Part shown: positions 43,990-50,591 of the stretch, in pieces
How the letters are laid out: each line of letters starts with the position of its first letter
Numbering within the stretch: position 1 is the stretch's first letter
From: Rubricoccus marinus
GTDB lineage: Bacteria; Bacteroidota; Rhodothermia; Rhodothermales; Rubricoccaceae
Direction of reading: 5' to 3'
DNA length: 64,000 nt
NCBI RefSeq assembly: GCF_002257665.1
Contig: NZ_MQWB01000001.1
Coordinates: forward strand, 2,106,511-2,170,510
Notes under the pieces: generated by a model
Told to the model about the DNA's origin: nothing
Databases searched by the model: none
The model's input: only the letters and a program-made list of their open reading frames with translations
Translations under genes and position numbers: made by a program

Positions 43990-45261
43990 TCAGCAGCCGC
44001 CCCCGCCGCCCCGAAAGGCGTCCGTAAACCGGCCGCCGCGGAAGGTGACGATGAGGTAGCGGTAGACCTCGGTGCCTTCTTCGAGGAAGAGCGCTTCGGC
44101 GGCGCCGTCGGCATCGACGTCCAGCACGCCGAGCAGTGAGAGCGTGGCAAAGCCGCTGGGGCGGTCCGGTACGCGTTCGAAAAGGAGGCGCGGCGCCGTC
44201 GCTCCGGGCGATGCCGCAACGGCGAGGCTCCGCCGCCGTTCGCCCTCGCCGATGGTGAACACGCCCACGGCCTCGTCCTGGCCATCGCCGTCCAGGTCCG
44301 CCGCGATGGCGCGCTGCTGACGAAGCCGCTGCGTGTCCACGCCCGCGATCTCGAACCTCTGTCGCGCGACGCCCTCCAGCGCCCTCGCGAGCGGACGGTT
44401 GAGAGCGGTGCCCTCCGCCAGAGGCGCGCCCATCACGCTGGAGGTGGTGCCGAGGCGCGCCCAGCGCGCGGCCTCTGGCGTCGGCGGGTCGGCGTAGGCG
44501 GTGACGTACTGGCAACCGAGCAGGCTGGCGCGGACGCTATCGACGCGGACCTCGGCGGGCGGCTGGCCGGCGCCGAGCGCGTAGAGCTTGCTGCCGCGAG
44601 GCGCGAGGGCATCGGCTGCGGCTCGGTTCAGGCCTGTCTCCGCCGCGAGCGCGAGGCTGTCACTGGCAAACGTGGAGTCGAAAAGGGCGCGTGCGCGCTG
44701 CTCGTACGGCGCCAGAGGCGCGAGGTAGCGGCCGTTCTCATAGCGCGCGATGGGGCTGAAGGCGAGCGTGCGGCGGCGGATGGTGGAGTCGGAGAGGACG
44801 CGGACGGCGAACAGCGTCGCCTCGGCGTCGCCCGCGCGCCAGTTGGGGCCGGAGCGGCCTCCGCCCTCGAAAACCCAGTTGGGGGCCTCGCGCCGGTGGC
44901 GCAGGATCAGTTCGCCCTGGATGGAGCGCTTTTCGGCGCGGAGCGCGAGCGCGACGCGGGACCGCGCGACCCGTCCGCTGTCGTCCACTACCTGATCCAC
45001 GATCCGAAGCTGGCGGATCTCCTCGGCCTCGATGGTCCACGGCCTCGCGCCCGAGCCGTCCTCGAAAAAGTCGAACCGGAGGCCGACAAGGTCCTCGCTG
45101 ATCTGTTCGGTGCTCGGAGGATCTGGAAGCGCGACGGGTTCGGGCTCGTCCGCGCAGCCGCTGGCGAGGCACATCACCAGGAGCAGCACTCTCCCAGTCC
45201 TCTGGCGCCAGAGGCCCGAGGTGCCTATCGGGATGCGTCGCCACAGGCGGCTAGATGGCAT
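43990..45261 (-). CDS. Hypothetical lipoprotein with FG-GAP-like repeat near the C-terminus
   Basis: The long frame gives 423 residues, but a lipobox (LLLVMCLASGCADE) near residue 35 suggests the real start is the GTG at 45189. The codons before it include a full iterated palindrome that looks intergenic. The product has a region with IAADLDGDGQDEAVGVFTI and LGVLDVDADGAAEALFLEEG, the D-x-D-x-D-G pattern of calcium-binding FG-GAP/EF-like repeats. It is probably attached to a membrane facing the periplasm. Function unknown. With the long start it overlaps the upstream HAS-barrel-like gene by 11 bases. Confidence 0.65.
   Translation of the reverse strand: MPSSRLWRRIPIGTSGLWRQRTGRVLLLVMCLASGCADEPEPVALPDPPSTEQISEDLVGLRFDFFEDGSGARPWTIEAEEIRQLRIVDQVVDDSGRVARSRVALALRAEKRSIQGELILRHRREAPNWVFEGGGRSGPNWRAGDAEATLFAVRVLSDSTIRRRTLAFSPIARYENGRYLAPLAPYEQRARALFDSTFASDSLALAAETGLNRAAADALAPRGSKLYALGAGQPPAEVRVDSVRASLLGCQYVTAYADPPTPEAARWARLGTTSSVMGAPLAEGTALNRPLARALEGVARQRFEIAGVDTQRLRQQRAIAADLDGDGQDEAVGVFTIGEGERRRSLAVAASPGATAPRLLFERVPDRPSGFATLSLLGVLDVDADGAAEALFLEEGTEVYRYLIVTFRGGRFTDAFRGGGGGC
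45199..45215. repeat. Iterated palindrome at the 5' end of the lipoprotein gene
   Basis: CCTCTGGCGCCAGAGGC lies 10 bases upstream of the alternative GTG start, which supports that shorter start. Confidence 0.9.
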
Positions 45262-45880
45262 CTTGCGCGCGGCGAAGGATGGAGGTGAGCCGCTCGTGGT
45301 CGTCGTCCAGCAGGCGGAGCAGCGCGCGGCCCGCCGCCAGAAGCACGGCGTCGCCTTCGTCGCCGCGGCCGTGAGCTTTGTAGAGGCCGCTGAGGACGGC
45401 CGCGATCAGGTCGTCGGCGGGGACGGCGGGGTCGGGGTGCCGCGCGAGGGTGCGGAGCGCGTCGAACGGCTCGCCGAGGAGGGCGACGGCCTCTGGCGCG
45501 CAGCAGCGCACGCGGTCGTGCAGCGCGGCGATGTGCGGCGGGAGCGACTGGCGGACGCGGGGGCGGCCGTCGGGGCGGCGCGAGGTTCCATCCCACCACC
45601 CGAGGATCTGCGCGCGGACGGTCGTGCGGATGAGCTCCTGGAGCTGAGGCATCTCGCGCTGGATGGTCTCGCGGTCCCAGCCGGCGCCCAGCGCCATCGC
45701 GCGGCGGCCGGGCTCCAGGCTCCCGGTCTCGGTGTGGCTCACGAGGGCGTAAACGATGGCGCCAGAGGCGATCTCGACCTCGATCCAGGTCCCGAACGCG
45801 GGCGGCTCGGCGTCGCGGTACGTCTCAGCGACGATCTCGCGGGTGCTGCTGGCGACGACTTCGGCGATGGGGGTGCTCAT
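45251..45880 (-). CDS. HAS-barrel-like domain protein
   Basis: The 209-residue product opens IAEVVASSTREIVAETYRDAEPPAFGTWIEVEIASGAIVYALVSH, which resembles the HAS-barrel (HerA-ATP synthase beta barrel) found at the N-terminus of HerA translocases and in stand-alone bacterial proteins. The rest is alpha-helical with no Walker motifs, so it is not a HerA ATPase. The gene lies on the same strand as the nurA gene 2.2 kb upstream. NurA is the classic HerA partner, and the cassette array sits between the two. The family call is by eye. Confidence 0.5.
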   Translation of the reverse strand: MSTPIAEVVASSTREIVAETYRDAEPPAFGTWIEVEIASGAIVYALVSHTETGSLEPGRRAMALGAGWDRETIQREMPQLQELIRTTVRAQILGWWDGTSRRPDGRPRVRQSLPPHIAALHDRVRCCAPEAVALLGEPFDALRTLARHPDPAVPADDLIAAVLSGLYKAHGRGDEGDAVLLAAGRALLRLLDDDHERLTSILRRAQDAI

Positions 45881-46177
45881 GCCGGAAGATCGCGCCTCTG
45901 GCGGGACGCGGCGCCAGAGGTTCGGTCCTCCCGGGCCTCTGGCGAGTGCGGTGTAGCGGGCCGGGGCGAACTCGTGCGCGCGGTGAATCCACCTGCGCCT
46001 GGAGGTCGCCAGAGGCGGTGCGGGCGGATTTCCGCTGGAGTTTGCGCGTGCGTAGGTTGGACGCTTTCCGGATGTTCTGACGCATGAAGTGCGCGAACCA
46101 TCGCTTCATGCCGCCCAGCTTCCGCCTTTTGTCCCGATTCCGGACTTCAACCGGCACTCAGTGCCGCTGAAGTACTA
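45881..46177. other. Gap upstream of the cassette array
   Basis: The left half holds copies of the iterated motif at 45894, 45912, 45936 and about 46008. The right half is plainer and contains two hairpins: GCATGAAG/CTTCATGC at 46082-46111, and a strong one at 46144-46173 built from ACTTCA/TGAAGT and CGGCAC/GTGCCG. The second lies four bases before the first cassette recombination point and may be a remnant attC or attI. I see no integrase gene. Confidence 0.5.
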
Positions 46178-46200
46178 GTTATGCAGATCACCCAACTCCG

Positions 46201-46866
46201 ATGAACTACGGTTACCTCCCAAGCTGGATCAGCACTGAGTTGGAAAGGCTCGGTCGCCTTATCGAATATGTCAACGGCTTCCTGACGGATCAGGCGGCTG
46301 ACGCTGAGGCGGCTCAGCAGACAGCCTTGGACGCTCACGTCGAAGCGCAGACCACTGACTCGTTTATGGACTTCTTTGCCGCAGGCATGGAGGCAAACGA
46401 AGTGTCTGAGGCGTTTCCCAATCTGATCTACGCCTCTCTCTTCCTCTCACTCTACTCGTTTCTTGAAAACACACTCGATCAACTCACCAAGTACCTAGCC
46501 CGTGAGGAGGGAGAGGGCAAGGTCACACCCAAGGAACTGAGTCATCGCGGAATCTTCCGGTCCCAGGTGTATCACCAGAAGGTGATGGACATCCCCTTTC
46601 CTGACCAAAGCGACGCTTGGGAGAGAGTCGAGGGCTACAACAGGGTCCGCAACTCATTGATTCATTCCTATGGCCGCGTCTCGGCGGACGGCGGTAGCAA
46701 TGCGCTCCGCTCGTTCATCAGCGCAACCAATGGAGTCGAGATCGTAACTGGAAGCTGGAACCAAGAGCAGCTATCTCTCAACTACGACTTCGTGAAGCTG
46801 GCTTACGAGGATGTCGTATCGGTTTTGAGAGACCTGGCAGAGGTCTACGCCCAAAGATCTGCATAA
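46201..46866 (+). CDS. Cassette 1 gene: HEPN-like protein
   Basis: The 221-residue product is mostly helical. RNSLIH at residues 150-155 in the context YNRVRNSLIHSYGR is the R-(N/H/D)-x3-H signature of HEPN domains, many of which are RNases in toxin-antitoxin and phage-defence systems. A partly hydrophobic helix (LIYASLFLSLYSFLENTLDQL) precedes it, as in RiboL-PSP/Apea-like HEPN families. The ATG lies 23 bases after the recombination point, and the stop TAA is inside the R'' core of the attC site. No antitoxin is encoded in the same cassette. Confidence 0.65.
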   Translation: MNYGYLPSWISTELERLGRLIEYVNGFLTDQAADAEAAQQTALDAHVEAQTTDSFMDFFAAGMEANEVSEAFPNLIYASLFLSLYSFLENTLDQLTKYLAREEGEGKVTPKELSHRGIFRSQVYHQKVMDIPFPDQSDAWERVEGYNRVRNSLIHSYGRVSADGGSNALRSFISATNGVEIVTGSWNQEQLSLNYDFVKLAYEDVVSVLRDLAEVYAQRSA

Positions 46867-46989
46867 CCAGCGGCTGCAGGCCGACAACGGGCTCCAGCGC
46901 TCTTGCTTCGTCCGGGGCTCGGCGTCTACGTTGCCTTCCCTATGGTCCGCGGTCGTTGCCCGTTGCGGCTGAGCCGCCATCTGTTACAC
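46861..46989 (+). repeat. attC site of cassette 1
   Basis: R'' is GCATAAC and the closing R' is GTTACAC. The left arm GCGGCTGCAGGCCGACAACGGGC pairs with the right arm (46958-46977) read in reverse as GCGGCTCAGCCGCAACGGGC. The pairing is complete apart from unpaired single bases on the left arm, matching the extrahelical bases that direct integrase strand choice. Length 129 bases, within the known attC range. Confidence 0.88.
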
Positions 46990-47004
46990 CGCGCTCCCGC
47001 TACT

Positions 47005-47628
47005 GTGGAATTGACCCTCGGTGACGGAACTTCGGTCCGGTCGCCCACCCCAGATCAGACCCGCGAGGCGCTGGTGGCGCTTGACGGGAGCCCCGATGCA
47101 TTCGCGATTCTGGACCGGGGCGACGGGACGTTTGTGCAGGCGCACGGCTCACCTACTGGGGGCTTCCTTCTTGAGCATCACGCGACAAACGGGAAACACC
47201 ATCGTGCGACTAACACCGCGCTTGCACTCTCGACGGTCGCCTCGGTGTTTGAGAGATTTGCCTCTGGCGCGCCCGACCCTCTCGCGCGGTTGTCAACCGT
47301 TGAGGTCAAGTTCGAGCCGCCGGACCCTGCCCCTCAACATCCTGCCCGGCCTCGTTGGGTGTCCGTCACGCTGATCGTGCTTGGCGGGATGCTGGCGACC
47401 ACCGTTTTCTATGCTATCGTGCTTTGGGCTATCCACAGCGGACCTACAGGCCTTCGTCTGGTTATGGTTGCCTCGGCGGCACTTACGGGGGGAATGTTAT
47501 GGGACGGGGTCAGACGAGGGGAGATGAATGGAAACAGCCGGGACACCGCTCCAGTGCTGTACTACCTATACCTAGCGTCTTACACCATGCTGTTCTGTGC
47601 AAGCGTGGGTGGTGCCCTGTTCTTCTAA
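47005..47628 (+). CDS. Cassette 2 gene: membrane-anchored protein of unknown function
   Basis: I placed the start at GTG 47005, 22 bases after the recombination point; the open frame continues upstream, but that lies inside the attC of cassette 1. The 207-residue product has an N-terminal soluble domain of about 95 residues (ELTLGDGTSVRSPTPDQTREALVAL, DAFAILDRGDGTFVQAHGS, FLLEHH). Three or so membrane segments follow (VTLIVLGGMLATTVFYAIVLWAI, LVMVASAALTGGML, YLYLASYTMLFCASVGGALFF). The soluble part looks like domains common in cassette and immunity-type proteins, but I do not recognise a named family. Confidence 0.7.
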   Translation: MELTLGDGTSVRSPTPDQTREALVALDGSPDAFAILDRGDGTFVQAHGSPTGGFLLEHHATNGKHHRATNTALALSTVASVFERFASGAPDPLARLSTVEVKFEPPDPAPQHPARPRWVSVTLIVLGGMLATTVFYAIVLWAIHSGPTGLRLVMVASAALTGGMLWDGVRRGEMNGNSRDTAPVLYYLYLASYTMLFCASVGGALFF

Positions 47629-47637
47629 ACGCGCGCG

Positions 47638-47767
47638 GTGTAACCCGGCGCTGCAGCCGACGGAGGGCCGTGGCGTTCTCGCCTCCGCCAGAGGCCCGCG
47701 TCGTACGTTGCGCGCTCCCACTTTTGCGCTCGTTCGCCCTCCGCTGCTGAGCGCCAATCTGTTCTGC
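47638..47767 (+). repeat. attC site of cassette 2
   Basis: R'' is GTGTAAC, the exact complement of the cassette's own opening GTTACAC. The left arm GCGCTGCAGCCGACGGAGGGC aligns with the reversed right arm GCGCTCAGCAGCGGAGGGC, with unpaired G and A on the left arm. The closing R' is GTTCTGC. Length 130 bases. Confidence 0.88.
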
Positions 47768-47779
47768 CGCGCTCCCATC

Positions 47780-47974
47780 ATGCTCATTAAGGCACTGATC
47801 GTTCTTAGCCCGGTAGTGGTCATCGGCTCTAGCGTCGTGCTTTTCCTAGAGCGGGCTAAGATGAAAGACCCCGGCTTTTTTGAACTGAGCAAGAGCAGGA
47901 GGTCAGTAGCCGCGAGGGCGGTGTTCACGGCGTACGCCGCTTTACTCGTAGCGGCGGTTGTGCTCGGGTGGTAG
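47780..47974 (+). CDS. Cassette 3 gene: small membrane protein
   Basis: The 64-residue product starts 19 bases after the recombination point. It has two hydrophobic segments (ALIVLSPVVVIGSSVVLFL and AVFTAYAALLVAAVVLGW) separated by a basic loop (ERAKMKDPGFFELSKSRRSV). No family recognised; small two-helix proteins are common cassette cargo. Confidence 0.6.
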   Translation: MLIKALIVLSPVVVIGSSVVLFLERAKMKDPGFFELSKSRRSVAARAVFTAYAALLVAAVVLGW

Positions 47975-48020
47975 CCTCCACGGCATCCCTATGTCTCTCG
48001 TAGCCGTCGAACCGCGCGCG

Positions 48021-48114
48021 GCAGAACCCACCGCTGCAGGCCTCCCGCGGACGAAGTCCACGCTCGGCCTGAGCCATCCCAGCGCCAGAGGCCTCTGGCG
48101 CCACACTGTTACAC
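48021..48114 (+). repeat. attC site of cassette 3, carrying an inserted iterated palindrome
   Basis: R'' is GCAGAAC, complementary to the cassette's own opening GTTCTGC. GCTGCAGGCC pairs with GGCCTGAGC with one extrahelical G. Between this arm and the closing GTTACAC lies AGCGCCAGAGGCCTCTGGCG and flanking bases. In the other two attC sites that interval is only five or six bases. The closing core overlaps the stop codon of the minus-strand nurA gene. Confidence 0.82.
48082..48102. repeat. Iterated palindrome inside the cassette 3 attC, just after the nurA stop
   Basis: GCGCCAGAGGCCTCTGGCGCC lies seven bases after the nurA TAA on the minus strand, within the attC arm-to-core interval. Confidence 0.92.
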
Positions 48115-49257
48115 CCGCGGCACCTGCTTGGAGACGCTCTTGCCGCTGGCGTCCCCCGCCAAGCCATCGCGGCGCAAGCGGCCTGCGAGCAGGCGGAAGA
48201 ACATCTCCCGCTCCTCCGCGCGGACCACGGCGCGTTCGTGCGCCTCTTGCAGGATGATCGGGTAGCCCCCCCCCTTCTCCGCCTGGTCCAGCAGGACCGA
48301 GTGGACGAGGTCCAGCCAGCCCGGCACGTTCGCAGCCCACGCAGGCATCTCCACGCGCGCCACCTCGCCCTTCAGGCGGAGGTAGAACGCTACGATCTGG
48401 TGCGGCCCGTACTGCGAGAGCACCTCGCTCCGGCTCTGGAACGTCGTGCTCCGTTCGCCCACCTCCAACACGCGTTCGAACAGGTGCCGGTCCAGCAGGC
48501 CGTGCAGGGAGTCATCGCCCGTGGCCCAGTCTTCCTCGCCTCGGTGCAAGCGGAGCAGGTTCACCACCTCCGCCGCGCCCGGCCGCGAGATGTACGACGC
48601 CAGAGGCACGCCGTCCTCTTGGAAGCGGTCGAGGATGGCGACGTAGCGCGCGAGCAGCGTCGTCTCCAGCGCGCGGTTTTTCATGCCGCGCAGCATCCAG
48701 CGGATGAGTGTGCCGTCCGCGAGGGCCACGATCTCGCGCCCGCTGCGGCGCTCCTCCACGGCCGTTTTGTGCAGCCAGTCCAGTTCCTGCTCGTCGCGCA
48801 GGGCCGAAACCACCTCCGCCGAGGCCTCTGGCGTGGCCGGGTCGTCCGGCGCCAGGTCGTCCAGATCGCCGCGCGAGTAGCGGAAGTCAGGCTCGGCGCG
48901 CATGAGCGGCGCGTCCAGCGTGCCGTAGTGCAGCGCGATCCGGCCGACGTTGAGGAGGTAGCACGCCGGGTCCGAGTGCCGGTCTGGGAAGATCTGGCTG
49001 CCGTCGGTCGCCACGACCGTGACCGTCGCGGGACGGCTGCCTGGAGCGGTGCCCACATCGGGCTGACCGAGCGGAATCCCACGCAGCGGCCCACGCCCCG
49101 CCTTCCGCGCGCGCTCTGCCAGAGGCTCCCAGTCCGGCGCGCACTCGTCCAGACACGCGCACGCCGTCTCCAGCCGCCACGCGTGGCGGTTTTGCTCCTG
49201 GCGCTGGTAGGCCGAGAAGTCGCCGAGTTGGCTCGCGAGGCGGGAGAAGTCGATCAC
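48109..49257 (-). CDS. nurA: NurA-domain nuclease
   Basis: The 382-residue protein has the NurA landmarks: VVATDGSQIFPDRHSDPACYLLNVG with the first catalytic aspartate, REIVALADGTLIRWML with the second acidic site, and the late PIILQEAHERAVVRAEEREMFFRLL. NurA is a 5'-3' nuclease that works with the HerA translocase in DNA end resection; a HAS-barrel-like gene lies further along the same strand. I used GTG 49257 (VIDFSRLASQLGDF); the frame extends further upstream without family resemblance. No herA ATPase gene is visible in the window. Confidence 0.85.
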   Translation of the reverse strand: MIDFSRLASQLGDFSAYQRQEQNRHAWRLETACACLDECAPDWEPLAERARKAGRGPLRGIPLGQPDVGTAPGSRPATVTVVATDGSQIFPDRHSDPACYLLNVGRIALHYGTLDAPLMRAEPDFRYSRGDLDDLAPDDPATPEASAEVVSALRDEQELDWLHKTAVEERRSGREIVALADGTLIRWMLRGMKNRALETTLLARYVAILDRFQEDGVPLASYISRPGAAEVVNLLRLHRGEEDWATGDDSLHGLLDRHLFERVLEVGERSTTFQSRSEVLSQYGPHQIVAFYLRLKGEVARVEMPAWAANVPGWLDLVHSVLLDQAEKGGGYPIILQEAHERAVVRAEEREMFFRLLAGRLRRDGLAGDASGKSVSKQVPRV

Positions 49258-49418
49258 AGAGAAGAGGCGGCGGCGGAGCCTGGAAGGTAGAATCCCGCCC
49301 CGGCGCGCGTCGCCGGCGCCAGGGGCCTCTGGCGTGGGCGCCCATTCCACCGCCTCTAGCGAGAACCCACCCAAACCTCGCAGCCGCGCGCACACTCCGG
49401 CACGCGCCAGAGGCGTAC

Positions 49419-50591
49419 TTGCCTCGTCCCGCTTCCCGCTCCGCATTGGCCGGCCTCTACATCCACGTCCCCTTCTGCTCGCAGCGCTGCATCTACTGCG
49501 ACTTCTATTTCACGACCACGAGCCGTGAGACGGGAGCCTTCGCGCGCGCCGCCGCGGTCGAGATCGAGGCGTACGGCAAGGAGTTCGGGTCCCGCGAGCC
49601 TCTGGCGACGATCTACTTCGGCGGCGGGACGCCCTCGCTGCTCCCGCCAGAGGACCTCGCGACGATCCTCAACGCCGTCCACGCGCACTTCGACACCTCG
49701 CAGGTGGAGGAGGTCACGCTGGAGGCGAACCCCGAGGACCTCACCGCCAGCGGCCTGGGCTCGCTTCGCGCGATGGGCGTCACGCGGCTCTCGCTCGGCG
49801 TGCAGTCGTTTTTCGACGAGGACCTCGCGTTCATGAACCGCGCCCACGACGCCGCCCAGGCCGAGCGCGCCGTGCAGATCGCCGCCGACACGTTCGACTC
49901 GTTCTCGGTCGACCTCATCTTCGGCGTGCCCGAGCAACCGTTCGAGCACTGGGGCGCGAACCTGGAGAAAGCGCTCCGCCTGGGCGCGCCGCACATCTCC
50001 GCGTACTCCCTCACCGTCGAGCCCAAGACGCCTCTGGCGAAACAGGTCCAACTCGGAACCGTGATTCCCGAGGGCGATGACGCGATGCTGGATCGCTACC
50101 TGTTTACCCACGAGTACCTGAAGGAGCGCGGCCTGGAGCACTACGAGGTCTCCTCGTTCGCCAAACCCGGCCACCACTCGCGCCACAACTCGCTCTACTG
50201 GGCACACCAGAACGTCCTCGCGATCGGCCCCAGCGCGCACGCGTTCTGGCGCGAGACCCGTAGCAAAGCGTGGCGGTGGGCCAACGTCGCCCACCTCGGC
50301 AGCTGGCGCGGACTGCTGGAATCCGGCCACCTCCCCGTCGACAACCGCGAGCAGCTCGGCGCCGACGCCCTCGCCGACGAGGCCATCCTGCTCGGCCTCC
50401 GCCGCCTCGACCTCGGCCTCGACCTCGACGTTCTGGAGCGCGACTACGGCGTCGATCTCTTGGTCGAAAAAGCCGACCTCCTCGCCTCTTTCGAGCGCGA
50501 ATCTCTCCTCACCGTCCGCAACGGCCGCGTCCGCCTCACCCCCAGCGGCGCCGCCGTCGCCGACGCACTCGCCGTCCGCCTCGTCCGCTAG
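49419..50591 (+). CDS. hemW: Radical SAM heme chaperone HemW-like protein
   Basis: The 390-residue protein has the radical SAM cluster motif CSQRCIYCDF (C-x3-C-x2-C), preceded by GLYIHVPF. It also has FGGGTPSLLPPEDL, EANPEDL, RLSLGVQSFFDEDL, DLIFGVPEQ and ISAYSLTVEP, all characteristic of HemW, and a C-terminal HemN-type domain. The extra cysteine after the cluster that distinguishes true HemN is absent. TTG 49419 is used as start; TTG 49446 is equally possible. It probably inserts heme into acceptor proteins. Confidence 0.9.
   Translation: MPRPASRSALAGLYIHVPFCSQRCIYCDFYFTTTSRETGAFARAAAVEIEAYGKEFGSREPLATIYFGGGTPSLLPPEDLATILNAVHAHFDTSQVEEVTLEANPEDLTASGLGSLRAMGVTRLSLGVQSFFDEDLAFMNRAHDAAQAERAVQIAADTFDSFSVDLIFGVPEQPFEHWGANLEKALRLGAPHISAYSLTVEPKTPLAKQVQLGTVIPEGDDAMLDRYLFTHEYLKERGLEHYEVSSFAKPGHHSRHNSLYWAHQNVLAIGPSAHAFWRETRSKAWRWANVAHLGSWRGLLESGHLPVDNREQLGADALADEAILLGLRRLDLGLDLDVLERDYGVDLLVEKADLLASFERESLLTVRNGRVRLTPSGAAVADALAVRLVR

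Follow-up and report, generated by a model that had tools for sequence, protein, structure and literature searches.

The array lies in a window of 64,000 bp (C1:2106511-2170510, the whole stretch of DNA that was analysed) of a genome which comprises 15 contigs and 4.43 Mb and comes from a single strain. Three cassettes follow an attI site between nurA and an ORF of 209 aa. The features are listed below in window coordinates; attI copies without an adjoining intI are called satellites.

45251-45880, minus strand: flanking ORF of 209 aa, adjoining nurA in three relatives
45943-45951, plus strand: motif CGAGTGCGG, at exactly -127 bp relative to the attI block
46070-46178, plus strand: satellite copy of attI-1, with 94% identity to the intI-linked attI (C1:1900734)
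46082-46111, plus strand: first inverted box pair of attI, GCATGAAG...CTTCATGC
46145-46172, plus strand: second inverted box pair of attI, CTTCAACC...GCTGAAG
46179-46983, plus strand: cassette 1, start/end match 12 bp; ORF 46201-46866, 221 aa
46861-46989, plus strand: attC1, 129 bp; leave-window-out profile E 5e-22
46984-47761, plus strand: cassette 2, start/end match 12 bp; ORF 47005-47628, GTG start, 207 aa
47638-47767, plus strand: attC2, 130 bp; leave-window-out profile E 6.9e-12
47762-48107, plus strand: cassette 3, start/end match 12 bp; ORF 47780-47974, 64 aa
48021-48107, plus strand: attC3, degenerate terminal site interrupted by the repeat GCGCCAGAGGCCTCTGGCGC
48109-49446, minus strand: flanking gene nurA (Pfam NurA, 4.5e-28), its stop codon being the supposed third R' core

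The product of cassette 1 may be a HEPN RNase, since it carries the motif RNSLIH (R-x4-H) and gives weak HEPN-like matches in Pfam and PADLOC. The ORF of cassette 2 matched no family above the cut-off. That of cassette 3 is related to a cassette in the C1:235 kb array (tblastx, 49% identity, 80 aa), and kindred cassettes are found in arrays with different attI types. In three relatives (G005, G006 and G008) nurA lies next to the 209-aa gene, with a gap of roughly 70-100 bp and no array between them; in the window this place is occupied by attI and the array. A search of four relatives for the pair of genes that flank the C1:241 kb array did not find the two together. A search of the window with Rfam at gathering scores gave no match.

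Cassette boundaries and attC sites

According to the first-pass annotation, the R'' core of each cassette complements the R' core that opens it. This holds for each of the three cassettes, and the agreement between cassette start and end extends to 12 bp, beyond the 7-bp core. Of the 7,555 GTT...AAC pairs located 150-1500 bp apart on the plus strand of the window, three reach 12 bp and the next best 9; these three are exactly the cassettes. The other cassettes chained in the genome have a start/end match of 11-13 bp in all but one case.

The sites attC1 and attC2 were recovered by a search of the window for paired 7-base cores with complementary arms, and the same search of shuffled window copies (n=5) gave zero attC-like matches. 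The E values listed above come from a profile for which 14 attC sites were used, all of them outside the window. The stem common to 16 attC sites consists of 20 pairs, 10 of which show compensatory changes, and one of its arms carries three single unpaired bases (alignment columns 16, 20 and 24). The predicted folds of individual sites are only moderately better than those of shuffled sequences (z from -1.5 to -2.8), and for this reason the covariation is the stronger evidence for attC.

The third site had also been presented as well formed, at 48021-48114, and here the description fails. The profile matches this site over no more than the first 28 bases (E 0.073), and the covariance model, which supports attC1 and attC2, did not report it at E<=0.01. 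The supposed R' core GTTACAC is the end of nurA with its stop codon (reverse complement GTG TAA C), and nurA of relatives likewise ends PRV-stop at that place. The sites attC1 and attC2 are genuine; the third attC, at the end of the array, is broken. Across the whole genome the attC model gives 31 matches in about a dozen places, the weakest of which may be due to chance. The attC sites of the different arrays constitute one family.

The sequence GCGCCAGAGGCCTCTGGCGC inside the third attC is a palindromic repeat of the genome. The sequence GCCAGAGGC, counted together with its complement, occurs 201 times in the 64 kb as compared to about 1.4 times expected from shuffles, often in the form of the palindromes GCCTCTGGCGCCAGAGGC or GCCAGAGGCCTCTGGC. 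The last attC of most arrays in the genome is interrupted or shortened at the same palindromic repeat (window, 48075-48100; L009, ~18300; L031, ~14130; L032, ~7320; L033, ~12970; L064, ~5745). The repeat is also present in some internal attC loops.

The attI block, its copies and the integrases

Just upstream of the interval reported in the first-pass annotation, and missed there, lies an attI site, to which the cassettes are joined between G46178 and T46179. The assignment is made by comparison with a complete integron on the same contig, namely with the sequence that separates its intI from its first cassette. A whole-genome search revealed five copies of this site (attI-1), each heading an array:

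C1:165122, minus strand: without intI
C1:241340, plus strand: without intI
C1:1424384, plus strand: without intI
C1:1900734, plus strand: beside intI
C1:2152558, plus strand: window copy, without intI

The attI-1 model gave no match in this genome away from an array. Behind all five copies the array starts at the identical junction G/TT (the slash marks the joint), and the first cassettes that are joined there differ from copy to copy. The block is 94-97% identical in all pairs of copies, whereas the 117 bp directly upstream of it are only 33-47% identical in 8 of the 10 pairs. Conservation of the block next to diverged sequence suggests selection for use; homogenisation by gene conversion could, however, preserve the similarity even if the sites were not in use. 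Within the block an 8-base box forms two inverted pairs, which are possible contacts of the integrase.

Two full-length integron integrases, IntI-1 and IntI-2, are encoded in the genome. Both score over the curated cut-off and show the catalytic R, K, H, R, H, Y pattern upon alignment. The gene intI-1 (C1:1899705-1900640) is situated beside attI-1 on the same contig as the window array, 252 kb away from it. No IntI coding was found within about 10 kb of the four attI-1 satellites. The statement that the array has no integrase is thus correct locally, but not for the genome. The residue that follows the first catalytic arginine is G in IntI-1 (L009:14700-15713, minus strand) and in its G005 and G008 relatives, and E in the other integrases (LRLRGALRL versus LRLLEALRL).

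IntI-2 is encoded on C10 (139 kb), i.e. on another contig than its satellites. Its attI type comprises four sites, one beside its intI and three without intI. All four head cassette arrays, and those behind the following three sites are intI-less:

C1:234825: attI-2 related site
C1:1320983: attI-2 related site
C1:1467001: attI-2 related site

Since a ParA-like ORF (L013:3-599, minus strand) lies near IntI-2 on C10, this integrase may be plasmid-borne, with its attI satellites on C1. The array near C1:1686 kb has only the last 14 attI bases in common, GCCCAATACTTGTT.

The lineage had been regarded as one not commonly linked with integrons, which is at odds with the relatives: IntI over the curated cut-off is present in 6 of the 9 genomes of the family and attC matches in all 9. 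In these relatives the attI ending tracks the IntI group, being roughly GAAGTA.TAG/TT for the IntI-1 group, GCCCAATAC.TG/TT for the IntI-2 group and AATCACTGG/TT for a third group. By model search, family genomes other than the source have one attI per type, with the exceptions of G008 (two attI-1 sites, one without intI) and G004 (one attI-1-like site at an intI-less array). Some intI-less arrays of G005 and G006 begin with attI-like ends which are too diverged to be called copies. In G041, a genome of another family of the same order, two attI-1-like sites are located on contigs without its IntI (C91 and C35; L160 and L159), and the C91 site heads an intI-less cassette array; this genome is fragmented, and linkage of the C91 array to its IntI is possible.

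Proposed supply of integrase in trans and alternative origins of the arrays

Most probably, with a probability of about 0.6, the window array is a satellite integron platform, which has its own attI and no integrase gene and is served in trans by one integrase. The joining of a folded attC bottom strand to attI is established integron biology. IntI-1 would perform this reaction at G/TT not only of its own attI but also of the satellites, so that cassettes would be inserted from a distance of 252 kb at the window attI and at the three other dispersed copies; IntI-2 would act likewise on its own attI type. Three elements of this picture are inferred: the action of the integrases in trans, continued exchange of cassettes at the satellites and the way in which the attI copies spread.

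This interpretation relies on several lines of evidence: the restriction of the five attI-1 copies to the heads of arrays, the junction G/TT shared by differing first cassettes, the contrast between the kept block and its diverged upstream sequence, full-length IntI-1 and IntI-2 with the catalytic pattern together with the lack of IntI coding within about 10 kb of the satellites, the correspondence of attI type and IntI group in relatives, kindred cassettes under different attI types, the single attC family, and the adjacency of nurA and the 209-aa gene in G005, G006 and G008. An intact integrase matching the window attI is present elsewhere in the genome. It counts against this interpretation that, in the rest of the family, most genomes have a single attI for each integrase and that the terminal attC of several arrays is broken.

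The satellites could instead be inert remnants of duplicated or separate integrons which have lost intI and take up no cassettes. Loss of intI is a proposed origin of CALINs (PMC8618304), and the broken terminal attC sites fit such decay. The motif CGAGTGCGG deserves attention in this respect. It occurs at -127 of the attI block in all five copies (window, L031, L032, L033 and L009) and is kept though most of the sequence between it and the block has diverged. In the intI-linked copy it is found inside the first codons of intI, and the equal distance in the satellites looks as if intI had been cut there. The motif may mark the point where intI was cut away or be a promoter element; a gapped alignment of the sequence upstream of the block with the intI-linked copy was not significant, leaving only the in-register motif at -127. 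Its shared position in 4/4 satellites is easier to reconcile with a single unit that spread than with separate losses, a search with IntI proteins revealed no intI remnant beside any satellite, and the attI block was kept at 94-97% while its upstream neighbour diverged. Decay into inert remnants is unlikely, though it is the foremost alternative to a satellite platform.

It is far less probable that the repeated block is some other repeat or an RNA leader preceding the cassettes and not attI. The block does fold well as single-stranded DNA (z -3.86) and has two inverted-repeat pairs, but in the complete integron it sits between intI and the first cassette and ends with G/TT, relatives of IntI-1 have equivalents ending GAAGT..TAG/TT, and every copy found heads an array. 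Off-target insertion into a chance chromosomal site (attG) with no involvement of attI, which is also among the proposed origins of CALINs (PMC8618304), is contradicted for the window array, where the first cassette is preceded not by a chance core but by about 120 bp that are a 94% copy of the intI-linked attI, and is highly improbable here; it could hold for the array at C1:1407 kb.

The two attI sets of the genome (five attI-1 and four attI-2 sites) may be described more broadly as a distributed integron, where one integrase and dispersed attI platforms with short arrays by different host genes replace one long array. The chances for and against this broader view appear to be even. If it is true, some of the arrays at present classed as CALIN could belong to this type.

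Relation to known integron systems

In the usual picture one integrase goes together with a single attI and a single array, and it has been proposed that intI-less arrays are integrons in a degraded state. An integron typically has one attI close to the integrase (PMC9024848), and three origins of CALINs are considered in reviews, namely off-target insertion, loss of intI and rearrangement (PMC8618304). Conserved attI sites at the heads of intI-less arrays make activity and feeding in trans testable. If such arrays are active in trans, this changes both the reading of CALINs and the view of where cassette genes enter the chromosome. In the literature, which was covered incompletely, no description was found of attI copies dispersed over a genome with a separate array behind each.

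The first-pass label of CALIN is apt insofar as two or more attC sites are present in the window array and no integrase is nearby; a program would assign the same label, there being no adjacent intI. It does not describe an array which has its own attI at the head and four near-identical copies of that attI elsewhere in the genome. Since IntegronFinder 2 detects only the attI of class 1 and not others (PMC9024848), attI platforms would go unseen and be reported as CALINs.

With a complete chromosomal integron the array shares attI, the G/TT junction, attC sites with a conserved stem and cassettes in one orientation. It differs in that the window attI has no adjoining intI and in that there are several attI copies per integrase. 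Off-target attG sites likewise receive cassettes by the action of integrase away from intI, but in the present array the target is a copy of the very attI that belongs to the integrase. A truncated attI is known to act inside cassettes of class 1 integrons (PMC12901181). These Delta-attI gene cassettes resemble the present case in having an extra attI away from the usual position which is recombined there by the integrase; in them, however, the truncated attI replaces attC inside a cassette, whereas in this genome attI heads separate, distant arrays.
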